Origin: Evansella cellulosilytica DSM 2522
GTDB taxonomy: Bacteria; Bacillota; Bacilli; Bacillales; Salisediminibacteriaceae
Length of the DNA stretch: 64,000 bases
NCBI RefSeq assembly: GCF_000177235.2
Contig: NC_014829.1
Coordinates: forward strand, 4,340,001 to 4,404,000
Reading direction: 5' to 3'
The translations under genes were made by a program, and so were the position numbers. The notes under the pieces were generated by a model. That model was not told the DNA's origin and made no database searches. It saw nothing but the letters and a program-made list of their open reading frames with translations. This document shows, in pieces, positions 15,766 to 47,757 of the stretch. The stretch's first letter is position 1; every line of letters starts with the position of its first letter.

Positions 15766-16470
15766 TGTTTTGAACGATTCGAATTTTTTGAGTTGCGTGC
15801 GATTTTGTCCGAGTTACGAGCGATTCTGTCTAAGTTGCGTGCGATTTTACCAAAGTTACGTGCGATTCCGTCCAAGTTTTGTGCGATTTGCCAAATGTCT
15901 GGTAAAACACAACCAAAAAAAACACTCTTTCTCTACTCCGAAGCTCGAACCCTCTTTGACACTGTTGTTTCGATTAGCACTTTGGTCGAGCCTTACTCTT
16001 TTGAATTATTTCTCACGTGTTTTGAACGATTCCAACTGAGTTGTGTGCGATTTTGTCCGAGTTACGCGCGATTTCGTCTAAGTTGCGTGCGATTTTACCA
16101 AAGTTACGTGCGATTCTGTCCAAGTTGAGTGCGATTTGCCAAATGACTGGTAAAACACAACCAAAAAAAACACTCTTTCTCTACTCCGAAGCTCGAACCC
16201 TCTTTGCCCCTGTTCTTTCGATTATCACTTTGGTCGAGCCTTACTCTTTTGAATTATTTCTCACGTGTTTTGAACGATTCCAACTTAATTGCGTACGATT
16301 TTGTCCGAGTTACGCGCGATTTCGTCTAAGTTGCGTGCGATTTTACCAAAGTTACGTGCGATTCTGTCCAAGTTGTGCGCGATTTTACCAGAGTTACGCG
16401 CGATTTCGTCCAAGTTGCGTGCGATTTACCAAACAACTGGTAAATAATCCCCTCCCGAGTTACGCAAAAT
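15766..16470. repeat. 21-bp phased repeats inside about 250-bp tandem super-repeats
   Basis: Three super-repeats starting at 15766, 16018 and 16266 (TGTTTTGAACGATTC). Each holds a run of units exactly 21 bases long with consensus AAGTTRCGYGCGATTYTRYCC, followed, except in the truncated third, by a conserved 120-base tail (AACACTCTTTCTCTACTCCG...). The third copy has more 21-bp units and then fades near 16470. Plus-strand open frames here (repeating AILSKLR) are only translations of the repeat. Confidence 0.9.
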
Positions 16471-25798: not shown

Positions 25799-26835
25799 AA
25801 AACGCTGTGGCTTTCCTTTCTTCGTCGATTCCCTCGTCCTAAAGGAATACTAAGCACTCTGGCTTTCCTTTCTTCGTCGATTTCCTCTTTCTAAAGGAAT
25901 ACTAAACGCTCTGGCTTTCCTTTCTACGCCGATTCCCTCGTCCTAAAGGAATACTAAGCACTCTGGCTTTCCTTTCTTCGTCGATTTCCTCTTTCTAAAG
26001 GAATACTAAACGCTCTAGCTTTCCTTTCTTCGTCGATTTCCTCTTTCTAAAGGAATACTAAACGCTCTGGCTTTCCTTTCTTCGTCGATTCCCTCGTCCT
26101 AAAGGAATACTAAACGCTCTAGCTTTCCTTTCTTCGTCGATTCCCTCGCCATAAAGGAATACTAAGCACTCTGGCTTTCCTTTCTACATCGATTTCCTCT
26201 TACTAAAGGAATACTAAACGCTCTGGCTTTCCTTTCTACGCCGATTTCCTCGTCCTAAAGGAATACTAAGCACTCTGGCTTTCCTTTCTACATCGATTCC
26301 CTCGACATAAAGGAATACTAAACACTCTGGCTTTCCTTTCTTCGTCGATTCCCTCGACATAAAGGAATACTAAGCACTCTGGCTTTCCTTTCTACGCCGA
26401 TTCCCTCGACATAAAGGAATACTAAGCACTCTGGCTTTCCTTTCTACATCGATTTCCTCTTACTAAAGGAATACTAAACGCTCTGGCTTTCCTTTCTACG
26501 CCGATTTCCTCGTCCTAAAGGAATACTAAGCACTCTGGCTTTCCTTTCTTCGTCGATTCCCTCGCCATAAAGGAATACTAAGCACTCTGGCTTTCCTTTC
26601 TACGCCGATTCCCTCGACATAAAGGAATACTAAACACTCTGGCTTTCCTTTCTACATCGATTCCCTCGACATAAAGGAATACTAAGCACTCTTGCTTTCC
26701 TTTCTACGCCGATTTCCTCGTCCTAAAGGAATACTAAGCACTCTGGCTTTCCTATCTTCGTCGATTCCCTCGCCATAAAGGAATACTAAACACTCTCGCT
26801 TTCCTTTCTACATCGATTTCGTTCTCCAGCTCCTT
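25799..26835. repeat. 52-bp tandem array, about 20 units
   Basis: AAAGGAATAC recurs every 52 bases from 25841 to 26777 (19 times, no phase slip), joined by CTCTGGCTTTCCTTTCT. Each unit has an inverted pair AAAGGAA/TTCCTTT and a variable part of about 20 bases in a few recurring forms (TACGCCGATT, TTCGTCGATT, TACATCGATT with CCCTCGACAT, TCCTCGTCCT or TCCTCTTACT). Non-coding: no frame runs through it with a start site. Confidence 0.95.
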
Positions 26836-41234: not shown

Positions 41235-41758
41235 TCTTGCCCCACCTTCTCTCCTTTTGCTTCACGGCGAATTTTCTCACGAAGCAAGTCTACACCATCT
41301 AGTAACGCAGGTGGTGTTGGTGGACACCCTGGCACGTAAACATCAACTGGAACAACTTTGTCAACACCGTTTACTACGCTATATGCCTCTTTGTATGGAC
41401 CCCCACATGTTGCACAGGATCCCATGGAAATTACCCATTTTGGCTCTGGCATTTGGTCATATAATGTTCTCAACACAGGCGCCATTTTAGATGTAACTGT
41501 ACCTGCAACAATCATGACATCGGAATGCCTCGGTGACGCTCGGAAAATAACTCCAAATCTATCAAAGTCATACCTCGCTGCCCCTGTCCCCATCATCTCA
41601 ATTGCACAGCATGCTAGCCCAAATGATAATGGCCATAACGAACGTGTACGTGACCACGCTTTTAACTGTTCAACCTTTGTGAAAAATACATTCCTTTTTA
41701 TGTCCTCTAGAATTCGAGGGTCATACTGTTCTGTGTCTTTAAAGCCTTTTAGTTCCAT
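41231..41758 (-). CDS. nuoB: complex I subunit NuoB (cluster N2)
   Basis: 175 aa. All four ligands of cluster N2 are present: the tandem Cys in [18 protein letters not shown], one in [10 protein letters not shown] and one in [14 protein letters not shown]. It passes electrons to quinone. I start at the ATG at 41758 with AAGGTG upstream; an earlier ATG at 41779 lies inside nuoA. The start overlaps the nuoA end by ten bases. Confidence 0.96.
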
Positions 41759-42120
41759 TCTAGCACCTTCTTTTTCCAAGAATATGCAAGCCCTAAGCCT
41801 AGAATTGCAATGAAGATTAACATGGCATTAAGACCTACCCAACCGAGCTGACCTAAAGCTACAGCCCACGGGTATAAGAAAACGGTTTCAATATCAAAGA
41901 TCACAAACTCAAGTGCTACGATGTAATACGCAACGTGATACCTCACTTGCGCATCACCTGTTGGCTCAATCCCACTCTCGTACGTTTGTAGCTTCTTGCT
42001 GTAAGGATTATTTGGGCGAAGCAAACGTCCAAATGTGAGCGCAACTACTGGAAGTGCTACACCTAATACCATGAAGATTAACACATAAATATAGTTGTCA
42101 AAATATACTCCCAGCCCCAT
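41749..42120 (-). CDS. nuoA: complex I subunit NuoA
   Basis: 123 aa with three membrane helices. The loop [20 protein letters not shown] is the family signature (ESG..P.G.A), and [12 protein letters not shown] holds the conserved acidic helix. Start ATG at 42120 with GGAGGGGAG; the frame runs to 42192 but that part has no site and crosses the likely promoter. First gene of the operon. Confidence 0.95.
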
Positions 42121-42172
42121 AACTTCTCTCCCCTCCATGTGATATAGTAAATTTATACTTGTTCCAATTAAA

Positions 42173-42202
42173 AGTATAACAAAGCAGTTCAAAAAATGTC
42201 TA
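42173..42202 (-). promoter_or_regulatory. candidate sigma-A promoter of the nuo operon
   Basis: Minus strand TAGACA, 18-base spacer, TATACT, about 50 bases before the nuoA start. -10 is one mismatch from consensus, -35 one mismatch. Confidence 0.45.
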
Positions 42203-43377
42203 TATTATTAGGAATTATCGCAATTTTATAGTTATTACATTAGTAATATTGTTAAGTCTGTTTTCATGTCATGTCGACAGGCTTGAAGCCTTGGTATATA
42301 TAGGTTTTATCTCTTTTTCATATGTTGATTTAATTAGAATTACTATAAATACTGAATTATTTTATTTTTCCGGCATTACAGGTGTGTTATGGTGAAAAAT
42401 ATGAACTGTTTTTTTCTGTTTTACTAGATTGGTATATAAGTGTTGACGTTTTGCTTCTGTTGTCTATGACAATACTCCTGTTTTACAAACAATCCTCCTT
42501 TATTCTTACATTTTTCTTCCTTCTAGGACTAATACAGTATTTCCTGGGTAATATAACAGGCTTGTTAATTGTACTTATTTAATAATTATGTTTTAAAAAG
42601 CATTTCGTATTACAAAATTTCTTGATTTTTTTGTGAAAAACTAGCAGATTATTTTGAAGTGATAATAATAGTAAATTTGGCGGTCTCATGTGATCGCTAC
42701 TATGACTCGTTTTTAGGTTACGCAAACCCGCTTGTCAGCTTTGGAAACTGTAAAGAAAAATCTCTATACAATAGTCGATTCAATCAAAGCACCTATTATG
42801 ACAATTTGTCTTATTTTTATGAGGGGATTTTTGAGGATCTCTTGTGGAATTAAATATGGATTTGAATTTTTCCGGATCTTTTATGGAATAAATATGGATT
42901 GGAATTTTTCCGGATCTTTTATGGAATAAATATGGATTGGAATTCTCTTATTTGTTGTTTGTTAGTTTTAGTTTGTTTCTGTGGTCATTATTTTAGTTAC
43001 TTTTTATGCAGTGTATCATTTGTTGTTATAATCTTGTTTTTTTAATCTTGTATCTTTTTTGTTTTTTAATCTTGTTTTTTTGATAGTGGTTGTGCTATTT
43101 AGTTGTCGTTGCTGCTTTTTTTCTTCGTTCCGTTTTTGATGCAAGCTTGTTTTTCTACACTCATTTAACCCTGTTGTTTTTCTTCTCCAAGAGTGTGTTA
43201 GATTAAGTCGTACATAATTTGTAACAATTCTAGTGAAATTTATAGAGGTTATTTCTAATAGGATGTCGTATTTACATTTGAAGAATTAGTGTTTAAAAAA
43301 TTATCAATTCAGTGCAGTTCACGATAAACACTTTTTTCGGATAAACAATATATCTTAAAATGAGGAGTGATTGTTTC
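42203..43377. other. AT-rich gap between nuoA and the transposase gene
   Basis: About 1.2 kb without a supported gene. A plus frame from GTG 42382 to 42582 would code a two-helix hydrophobic peptide (LLSMTILLFYKQSSFILTFF) but has no ribosome site; it could be a decayed membrane gene. The 38-bp repeat at 42851-42945 lies here, followed by a T-rich part near 43030-43090. Confidence 0.45.
42851..42945. repeat. 38-bp tandem repeat, 2.5 copies
   Basis: TAAATATGGATTGGAATTTT followed by TCCGGATCTTTTATGGAA at 42851, 42889 and (partial) 42927, spaced 38 bases. Confidence 0.85.
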
Positions 43378-43935
43378 ATGGCTTATGAAAAACGAAATTG
43401 GGAGCTCGGCCGACACTATCATATTTTCAATCGTAAGAGTAGGAGGGACACTTTATTTTACAAAGATGACGATTTTATATTTTTTTTGAATATACTACAC
43501 GCGACAAGCCTCAAATACCCTTTTAAAATTTCGGCCTACTGCCTGATGAAGAATCATTACCATCTCCAAATATTTTCTAATCACCTTCCACTATCACCAA
43601 TTATGGAGCAAATAAATAAACTGTATGCAAGATACTTTAACCATAAATACAATCATAGTGGCCCCCTGTTTGAAGACCGTTTTAAATCAATTCCCGTAAA
43701 AGATAATCATGGAATGATAACGCTAAGCAGATACATACATTATAATCCAGTACATCAAAAGAATAATCGCTACCGCACTCCAGAGGTTTATAAATGGAGT
43801 AGCTATACATTCTATTTACCATCAACTCCCGCTAATGAAATCCCCACATTTTTAGATACTACTCCTATCTTGAACCAATTCCAAGGAAATGAATACGAAA
43901 AGAAAGCAAGGTATATTGATTGGTGTAAATACTGA
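43378..43935 (+). CDS. REP-associated-type tyrosine transposase (Y1_Tnp, HUH)
   Basis: 185 aa. The HUH metal motif is KNHYHLQIF (residues 59-67, H60-Y-H62); the N-terminal GRHYHIFNRKSRRDTLF is typical of this transposase group. The catalytic-tyrosine helix is in YARYFNHKYNHSGPLFEDRF, followed by HYNPVHQ and YKWSSY. The group acts on single-stranded DNA hairpins and is often a single-copy gene tied to palindromic repeats. Start ATG at 43378 with GAGGAG; an ATG six codons upstream overlaps that site. Intact, convergent to atpC, with the 91-bp hairpin array starting about 215 bases downstream. No flanking IS ends were recognised. Confidence 0.9.
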   Translation: MAYEKRNWELGRHYHIFNRKSRRDTLFYKDDDFIFFLNILHATSLKYPFKISAYCLMKNHYHLQIFSNHLPLSPIMEQINKLYARYFNHKYNHSGPLFEDRFKSIPVKDNHGMITLSRYIHYNPVHQKNNRYRTPEVYKWSSYTFYLPSTPANEIPTFLDTTPILNQFQGNEYEKKARYIDWCKY

Positions 43936-44150
43936 TTTATTTAAATTGATTTTGGGAGATGGGGCATAGCAGGACTGCGTTTGTGCGCTATTTTTTGGAT
44001 GGATGGAGCATAGTGTCTTGCGTTTGTGTGCTATTTTTGCGTGGTCGTGCAGTTTGCGCATTTATGGAGCGGAATTATGTGTGGGTAGTTTAGTTGAGAT
44101 GGAGCTGGTATCGAAGGTCGTTTTATCTTTGTGGGATGAGTATCTTTTCT

Positions 44151-45660
44151 TTATGAAGGTGAGAGTTTTGAACCCGGGTTCGTTGTAACCCGGGTTACTT
44201 TCCCTCACCTTCAATCGCGCTCATGCTCCTGTTTTCTCTCTTTTTGAAGGTGAGAGTTTTGAACCCGGGTTCGTTCTAACCCGGGTTACTTTTCCTCACC
44301 TTCAAACTCTCTCATTCTCTTGTTTTCTCCCTTTTTGAAGGTGAGAGTTTTGAACCCGGGTTCACTTTAACCCGGGTTACTTTTCCTCACCTTCAATCGC
44401 GCTCATGCTCTTGTTTTCTCTCTTTTTGAAGGTGAGAATTTTGAACCCGGGTTCGTTCTAACCCGGGTTACTTTCCCTCACCTTCAATCGCGCTCATGCT
44501 CTTGTTTCCTCTCTTTTTGAAGGTGAGAATTTTGAACCCGGGTTCGTTGTAACCCGGGTTACTTTCCCTCACCTTCAAACTCTCTCATGCTCTTGTTTTC
44601 TCCCTTTTTGAAGGTGAGAGTTTTGAACCCGGGTTCACTTTAACCCGGGTTACTTTTCCTCACCTTCAATCGCGCTCATGCTCTTGTTTTCTCTCTTTTT
44701 GAAGGTGAGAATTTTGAACCCGGGTTCGTTCTAACCCGGGTTACTTTCCCTCACCTTCAATCGCGCTCATGCTCTTGTTTCCTCTCTTTTTGAAGGTGAG
44801 AATTTTGAACCCGGGTTCGTTGTAACCCGGGTTACTTTCCCTCACCTTCAAACTCTCTCATGCTCTTGTTTTCTCCCTTTTTGAAGGTGAGAGTTTTGAA
44901 CCCGGGTTCGTTGTAACCCGGGTTACTTTCCCTTACCTTCAAACTCTCTCATGCTCTTGTTTTCTCTCTTTTTGAAGGTGAGAATTTTGAACCCGGGTTC
45001 GTTCTAACCCGGGTTACTTTCCCTCACCTTCAATCGCGCTCATACTCTTGTTTCCTCTCTTTTTGAAGGTGAGAGTTTTGAACCCGGGTTCGTTGTAACC
45101 CGGGTTACTTTCCCTCACCTTCAATCGCGATCATGCTCTTGTTTTCTCTCTTTTTGAAGGTGAGAGTTTTGAACCCGGGTTCGCTTTAACCCGGGTTACT
45201 TTCCCTCACCTTCAATCGCGCTCATGCTCCTGTTTTCTCTCTTTTTGAAGGTGAGAGTTTTGAACCCGGGTTCGTTGTAACCCGGGTTACTTTCCCCACC
45301 TTCAATCGCGCTCATACTCTTGTTTCCTCTCTTTTTGAAGGTGAGAATTTTGAACCCGGGTTCGTTCTAACCCGGGTTACTTTCCCTCACCTTCAAACTC
45401 TCTCATGCTCTTGTTTCCTCTCTTTTTGAAGGTGAGAATTTTGAACCCGGGTTCGTTCTAACCCGGGTTACTTTCCCTCACCTTCAATCGCGCTCATACT
45501 CCTGTTTCCTCTCTTTTTGAAGGTGAGAGATTTGAACCCGGGTTCGTTGTAACCCGGGTTACTTTTCCTCACCTTCAATCGCGCTCATGCTCTTGTTTCC
45601 TCTCTTTTTGAAGGTGAGAATTTTGAACCCGGGTTCGTTGTAACCCGGGTTCGCACCACC
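44151..45660. repeat. 91-bp hairpin array, 17 units
   Basis: Units begin at 44155 and every 91 bases after (one 90-base step at 45247-45337), last at 45610. Each has an outer inverted pair TTGAAGGTGAG/CTCACCTTCAA enclosing two perfect palindromes, GAACCCGGGTTC and GTAACCCGGGTTAC, which can also pair with each other. Between hairpins is a spacer in two main forms, TCGCGCTCATGCTC or ACTCTCTCATGCTC. The last unit decays into CCCCCGGGTTCACC. No CRISPR-like unique spacers. Confidence 0.95.
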
Positions 45661-45717
45661 CCCGGGTTCACCTCCCCCCCCTATTCCAAAGAAAATACTC
45701 CCCTCCCCAACATCAAA

Positions 45718-45760
45718 AAAACACATAAAACTAGCTTCACAAAGCTAGTTTTATGTGTTT

Positions 45761-45761
<1 letters not shown>
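45718..45761 (-). terminator. Rho-independent terminator of the atp operon
   Basis: AAAACACATAAAACTAGCTT, loop CACA, and the exact complement: a 20-bp perfect stem touching the atpC stop, with A/T tracts on both sides. Confidence 0.92.

Positions 45762-47757
<1,996 letters not shown>

Follow-up and report, generated by a model that had tools for sequence, protein, structure and literature searches.

The window analysed here, a stretch of 64,000 nucleotides of Evansella cellulosilytica DSM 2522 (G000:C1:4340001-4404000, where G000 is the genome, a single 4,681,672-bp contig), is probably home to a RAYT-REP system that comprises a RAYT fixed in the chromosome, a directional array of its cognate hairpins on the 3′ side, and ten related arrays elsewhere, grown by duplication. 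From the sequence we infer that the RAYT would act on these hairpins. RAYTs (TnpA-REP) with REP sequences and REPINs were first described in Gammaproteobacteria, according to passages of PMC2817692, PMC3116915, PMC6006769 and PMC8049555. RAYT-REP systems are thus known, and it is the long, one-way arrays of Bacillaceae, with their complete replication polarity, that look like a new observation; our literature search, mainly of the main texts of freely accessible papers, returned no RAYT-linked tandem arrays in Bacillaceae.

Transposase gene and array in the window

The transposase gene (43378..43935, + strand) encodes 185 aa, or 191 aa in the form starting from 43360. Its product scored 48.5 bits against Pfam Y1_Tnp (cut-off 23) and 49.3 bits against the NCBIfam model REP_Tyr_transpos (NF047646), missing the curated score of 80, as did all three proteins concerned (49.3, 53.3 and 66.8 bits); it may thus be a distant member or belong to a sister subfamily. 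The residues H60, H62, Y119, N123 and P124, which make up the HUH and Y---NP motifs, were invariant across 16 aligned sequences, and these motifs are the class 2 TnpA-Y1 signature in the parts of PMC6006769 that we used. The structure model of the protein (pLDDT 93.9) was submitted to Foldseek, for which the top of 1019 matches (E ≤ 10) was 4er8, the complex of the RAYT of E. coli with a REP hairpin, with E 7.2e-8 and TM 0.65/0.72. A phmmer search of solved structures with the transposase found nothing. Judging by the catalytic residues and the predicted fold, the gene is a RAYT-type Y1 transposase.

The locus lies between nuoA (41749..42192, − strand, Pfam Oxidored_q4) and atpC (45761..46162, − strand, leading-strand orientation, Pfam ATP synthase delta/epsilon). 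A hairpin followed by a T tract (45714..45765, − strand, recognised by eye) is located 3′ of atpC and is likely the atp terminator. No REP was found 5′ of the RAYT, and the array of this kind is present on the 3′ side only; a 38-bp repeat in three copies occurs on the 5′ side, at 42827-42944.

An earlier note, made from the letters alone, had described 17 units of 91 bp with a single one-base slip, about 215 bases past an intact Y1 transposase gene. Both statements were confirmed: Tandem Repeats Finder reported the array at 44148-45651 (+ strand; period 91, 16.5 copies, 93% matches, score 2567), the unit starts are 91 apart with one exception of 90, the last unit is truncated, and 212 bases separate the end of the gene at 43935 from the array. 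This gap (43936..44147) has no second copy in the G000 genome, where it matched only itself. Read on the + strand, each unit consists of a 63-nt hairpin and a 28-nt CTC-rich linker, the arms TTGAAGGTGAG / CTCACCTTCAA enclosing two AACCCGGGTT palindromes 16 bp apart; the GAG-rich sense is on the − strand, which is also the leading strand. The truncated unit is followed by degenerate GC-rich remnants, identified by eye (45607..45680, + strand). Units 3-5 are pairwise identical to units 6-8, which corresponds to a 273-bp three-unit duplication (44334..44879, + strand). Local growth therefore resembles recombination or slippage, and the transposase, which the earlier note had named as a possible amplifier of the hairpins, is better placed as their disperser.

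The predicted hairpin of the unit is strong, and, as noted earlier, no T run follows it on either strand of the unit (by eye), for which reason intrinsic terminators were rejected. CRISPR was rejected since the linkers are near-copies of each other and not unique spacers, and known RNA families since all Rfam matches in the window array were below gathering scores. Nucleoid-occlusion (Noc) sites, which have the CCCGGG core in common with the unit, were set aside as the bases flanking this core differ. Searches of plasmid and phage collections with 44000-45760 and 44152-44700 gave no match.

The unit family and its association with the transposase

A unit search at E ≤ 0.001 found 11 arrays in G000, that is ten besides the one in the window, at 0.88, 1.03, 1.53, 1.63, 3.10, 3.76, 3.83, 3.93, 3.95, 4.385 and 4.525 Mb, with 85 palindrome pairs in all (at most two substitutions). 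With the family at 11 places, a barrier specific to the interval between the atp and nuo operons, one of the possibilities raised earlier, is not supported. Ten of the 11 arrays are distant from the transposase, literally the outcome that the earlier note had held to speak against a link between the two; action in trans would also give it. No gene was found inside the arrays of the family.

According to the repeat finder, each of the 11 arrays has a period of 91, and indels were few. Consensus units were compared for ten of them (L037 was dropped for having too few clean units; 83 of the 85 units were used), and the frequency of site differences was 0.000 in the palindromes, 0.537 in the six-base loop and 0.294 in the linker; the right arm did not differ either. 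The inner stem hardly varies, and the changes in the left arm, at positions 8, 9 and 13, are uncompensated in the right arm among 66 distinct hairpins, so that inside G000 covariation does not speak for a selected outer stem. As for the ends of the arrays (nine viewed, by eye), the 5′ foot of the GAG-sense hairpin, CTCACCTTC, is the exact end of five, two end within three bases of it and two elsewhere, while the opposite boundary is variable. The foot GT[AG]G is not in the G000 consensus unit; it occurs anywhere in 21 of the 85 real units, and anywhere in eight of ten typed consensus units from seven genomes (the typed G000 unit has 93 letters, two too long).

The invariance of the palindromes in ten consensus units, with loop and linker drifting, is what would be expected of a protein-binding array under selection, in which a dimeric host protein would sit on the paired AACCCGGGTT palindromes for nucleoid organisation, for segregation or as a polar signal for a translocase, the RAYT being a neighbour or a mere tool of spread. 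The constant period, the polarity of the arrays and the interval from 1.63 to 3.10 Mb, around the terminus, in which no array was found, would agree with this reading too, although we know of no candidate protein for such an array. We hold it to be rather unlikely, since only pieces of 23-41 nt of the unit, in the linker or reaching into it, were found in three of 59 other genomes, and since hairpins change from one species to the next and, within a genome, go with the array beside the RAYT, as a transposase substrate would.

The linker pattern CTCWTNCTCNCGTTTYCTC was present in four of the 35 family genomes, G000 included (reversed-pattern control: 0), and a longer linker pattern with at most two mismatches in 11 of the 35 (reversed control: no more than 1 match on either strand of any genome). 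In the relatives, the linker motifs are surrounded by tandem units whose length is mostly 86 to 111 bp and whose hairpins are different; in G004, for example, these have TTCCAGGAA pairs, and in G033 GTAGGTGCTAC arms. The 89-bp array of G005 matches neither linker pattern. On this comparison of sequences, the CTC-rich linker is common to most of these genomes while the hairpin changes. The claim that the hairpin core is more conserved than the spacer thus holds within the G000 genome but is reversed between species.

We also observed that unit spacing in the G004 arrays (L217, L219, L223, L224) takes the values 86, 91, 101 and 111 bp, which would suit a blockwise gain or loss of inner palindromes. 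A hairpin element, CTGCGACGAGTAACCGCAGGAGC, forms 32-bp repeats in three genomes (L160:3684-3816, L161:7632-7700, L240, L234:1807-2221) and is also embedded in the array units of G033, where the period becomes 122 bp. Between atpC and nuoA of G007, which has no RAYT at this place, there is a degenerate linker motif, possibly a relic (G007:C26:84421).

RAYT homologues were present in 25 of the 35 family genomes, with 71 matches listed, and 26 loci were examined, namely the 24 with the highest scores and, in addition, two distant homologues in G000. Seven of these, one per genome and from two genera (G000, G003, G004, G005, G010, G020, G033), have a tandem array that starts 27-251 bp downstream and has the same orientation, with differing hairpins; in G020 the unit is 272 bp long, in 1.9 copies, with no motif match at four substitutions. 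The other 19 loci, the closest homologues (G008, G009) among them, have no such array. One of these 19, the second RAYT copy of G009, has 15/45-bp repeats on both sides. Seven genomes, from two genera, have the RAYT between atpC and nuoA, five of them with the array (G000, G005, G010, G020, G033) and two without it (G008, G024), and in G003 and G004 RAYT and array occur together at another locus. At the atpC-nuoA loci, identity to the window is 40-53% for the RAYT versus 78-89% for AtpC, and hence the RAYT is kept in place and evolves fast. Of the control stretches, 300 kb in all and chosen regardless of arrays, three contained a 52-nt array, one contained repeats taken as coding, and none contained an array of this class.

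When the linker was masked, 26 of 31 dispersed arrays were closest to the RAYT-adjacent array of their own genome, and the five mismatches were all between G003 and G004; this own-genome matching could also stem from homogenisation within each genome. A tree of the 26 homologues does not unite the array-bearing RAYTs: the array label needs 5 changes, a number as low in 73 of 500 shuffles, which makes its clustering not significant.

The earlier note had suggested that the presence of arrays and of the transposase should correlate across genomes, and the answer depends on the definitions, which were set after the data had been seen (the strict set includes G007, with scattered single motifs, and G005 counts as being without motif). 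With a strong RAYT, the association appears both for the strict motif (7/7 versus 10/28, p 0.003) and for the loose one (7/9 versus 10/26, p 0.049); with any RAYT it does not appear for either (7/7 versus 18/28, p 0.071; 7/9 versus 18/26, p 0.49). The leading idea of that note, a transposase-linked hairpin family, found its support in the adjacency in seven genomes and in the polarity of the arrays.

That most RAYT loci examined lack an array, and that the window array contains a three-unit duplication, would both suit a passive satellite, namely hairpin DNA amplified by lagging-strand slippage with the RAYT as a bystander once inserted nearby; other satellite classes do exist in these genomes, as parts of PMC8161180 report. 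Nevertheless, slippage alone would not bring a family to 11 loci, and the adjacency has a fixed order and orientation in seven genomes at two chromosomal positions, on which grounds we judge a passive satellite quite improbable.

In other groups, 80 loci with 27-45% identity to the RAYT were obtained when named genomes were scanned. Distant Y1 genes of other phyla (L108, L109, L110, L113 and L079) have palindromic tandem repeats of 48-129 bp next to them, and in the last four of these the repeats are present on both sides of the gene.

Orientation relative to replication

In G000, the − strand carries the four arrays from 0.88 to 1.63 Mb and the + strand the seven from 3.10 to 4.53 Mb. The dnaA gene lies at base 139 of G000 (ORF, Pfam), and the sampled GC skew changes sign at 2.40-2.48 Mb, with near-zero samples at 3.40 and 4.15 Mb. 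From the strand switch, together with dnaA and the skew, it follows that all 11 arrays face the same way with respect to the fork: their GAG-rich sense is that of the leading strand and thus of the lagging-strand template.

We then considered 37 arrays, the 11 of G000 and 26 from six relatives, and evaluated the local GC skew with the array masked. The orientation agrees with replication in all 37, three skews being weak (< 0.02); the single-motif loci L215, L220 and L235, which are consistent, and the RAYT locus L239 of G020 were omitted from this count. Since some arrays are orthologous (for example the arrays of the atpC locus and, judging by the ORFs around them, three pairs shared by G003 and G004), we estimate about 30 independent loci. 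In G003 and G004, in which a DnaA homologue was located, the orientation of the motifs listed flips across dnaA and near its antipode.

Neighbouring genes were classified from mechanical ORFs of at least 80 aa, which gave, before correction for rRNA, 20 arrays between two co-oriented genes, 12 in convergent, 3 in divergent and 2 in opposed contexts. Because L231 and L232 of G033 directly follow same-sense rRNA operons, the counts were corrected to 21 between co-oriented genes, 13 convergent, 2 divergent and 1 opposed to both neighbours. Both of these G033 arrays (L231:4636-4968, L232:4659-4900) start right after the 5S gene. For 16 arrays the orientation is not dictated by the neighbours, and all 16 run along replication (two-sided binomial ~3e-5). 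The three exceptional arrays weigh most in separating replication from transcription: the neighbours of the divergent L213 and L228 and of the opposed L038 are Pfam-recognised (except for one of the six ORFs, the 147-aa one downstream of L228), and L038, at 1.527 Mb, lies between two lagging-strand genes. In the GAG sense, the remaining 34 arrays are 3′ of a co-oriented gene (two rRNA operons and one tRNA cluster being counted), and for this reason transcription and replication are separated only partly.

This co-orientation in 34 of 37 arrays, with the strong predicted hairpin and the transcription of 52-nt satellites in B. coagulans (in passages of PMC8625621), is what would favour an RNA or transcription-linked element, either a structured 3′ tail or a mark at the 3′ end of leading-strand operons with strong expression, a reading that we consider highly improbable, since the window array is beyond the likely atpC terminator, no Rfam family reached its gathering score in that array, and the three arrays that do not follow a co-oriented gene, one of them opposing both neighbours, are still oriented along replication.

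If a RAYT-REP system is at work, as we think probable, the RAYT would cut the hairpin-bearing strand while this is single-stranded on the lagging-strand template and would rejoin it into single-stranded intergenic DNA, after which slippage or unequal recombination would lengthen and homogenise each array, and hairpin and RAYT would change together. Acting on GAG-sense hairpins of the lagging-strand template, the RAYT would let each new copy keep one polarity, and newly gained arrays would be expected to show this polarity and an exact boundary on the GAAGGTGAG side. Parts of PMC6006769 describe IS200/IS605-family Y1 transposases as cutting hairpin-bearing single strands and targeting the lagging-strand template. 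Polarity alone does not single out the RAYT, as the 52-nt satellites described below, which have no known Y1 partner, lean likewise.

REPINs are inverted pairs, in which the choice of strand is hidden, and to our knowledge the way in which RAYTs spread REPs is unsettled. Directional arrays would reveal this choice, with the repeat strand always being the lagging-strand template. They may also point to an origin for constant-size bacterial satellites and offer a Gram-positive system for testing RAYT action, replication coupling and the co-evolution of enzyme and hairpin.

Known systems and other satellites

The locus has in common with RAYT-REP systems a Y1 transposase with HUH and Y---NP motifs, cognate palindromic repeats both beside the RAYT and dispersed between genes, and a vertically inherited RAYT. 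It departs from them in its units, which are mostly long (86-111 bp), directional and in tandem, in contrast to the inverted pairs of REPINs, in the GT[AG]G foot, missing in G000, and in its hosts, which are Bacillaceae; unlike in a REPtron, the RAYT is not flanked by inverted REPs on both sides, the arrays being 3′ only. Ordered tandem arrays do occur among the GI-GIII REPs of Pseudomonas fluorescens SBW25, where, in passages of PMC3116915, five arrays near 2 Mb run forward and six near 4 Mb run in reverse, the two groups being on opposite sides of the chromosome. This is the same kind of polarity, there mentioned in passing, and it fits the mechanism proposed above; the SBW25 arrays differ in that their REP types alternate, at distances of 112 and 72 bp, and those passages contain no test of gene context. 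With IS200/IS605 elements the system shares Y1 chemistry, hairpin recognition and lagging-strand-template targeting, whereas insertion sequences carry their own transposase, and within these arrays no gene was found.

The closest description in Bacillus is that of the constant-size satellites in PMC8161180, which in the parts available have species-specific sequence, constant period and complementary short sequences within the unit, and which cover B. cellulosilyticus (4.68 Mb, 36.5% GC, 64 tandem repeats, with the 52-nt families 37_52_10 and 61_52_6). Those satellites are of 52 and 20-21 nt, in contrast to the 91-nt unit with a transposase partner described here. In the same parts of PMC8161180, repeat families are named for these two lengths only, a table has 8 repeats over 53 nt for B. 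cellulosilyticus, among which, in the supplement, the 91-nt arrays may figure, and we found no analysis of orientation, strand, replication, hairpin, palindrome or transposase.

The families 37_52_10 and 61_52_6 resemble the G000 arrays L144 and L139 and recur genome-wide. Among the matches listed (L256-L275, L139), 20 of the 25 loci of these two families with at least two signals run along replication (p 0.004), those against it being at 0.651, 1.174, 1.178, 1.194 and 2.836 Mb, in addition to two single signals; three of the five cluster at 1.174-1.194 Mb. The ~91-nt and 52-nt directional satellites of Bacillaceae might be one phenomenon, with hairpin-plus-purine-linker units laid on the lagging-strand template by single-strand transposases; their polarity would then preserve, like a fossil, the direction of replication, and turnover driven by the RAYT would explain why size and place last while the sequence changes. 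We regard this generalisation as doubtful.

The window itself contains a 52-nt satellite of 19 copies (25808-26818), which is pyrimidine-rich on the + strand and so purine-rich on the leading strand, and a nested 21/42/248-bp array (15789-16431), probably of the known 20-21-nt satellite class. Finally, the region 3′ of atpC, which in the window is occupied by the RAYT and its array, contains 52-nt arrays of 34 and 11 copies in G002 and G001 (L162:7767-9554 and L163:1-566) and 21/42/82-bp arrays in G003 and G004 (L160:9186-9592 and L161:1893-2225), that is unrelated satellites in the same place.
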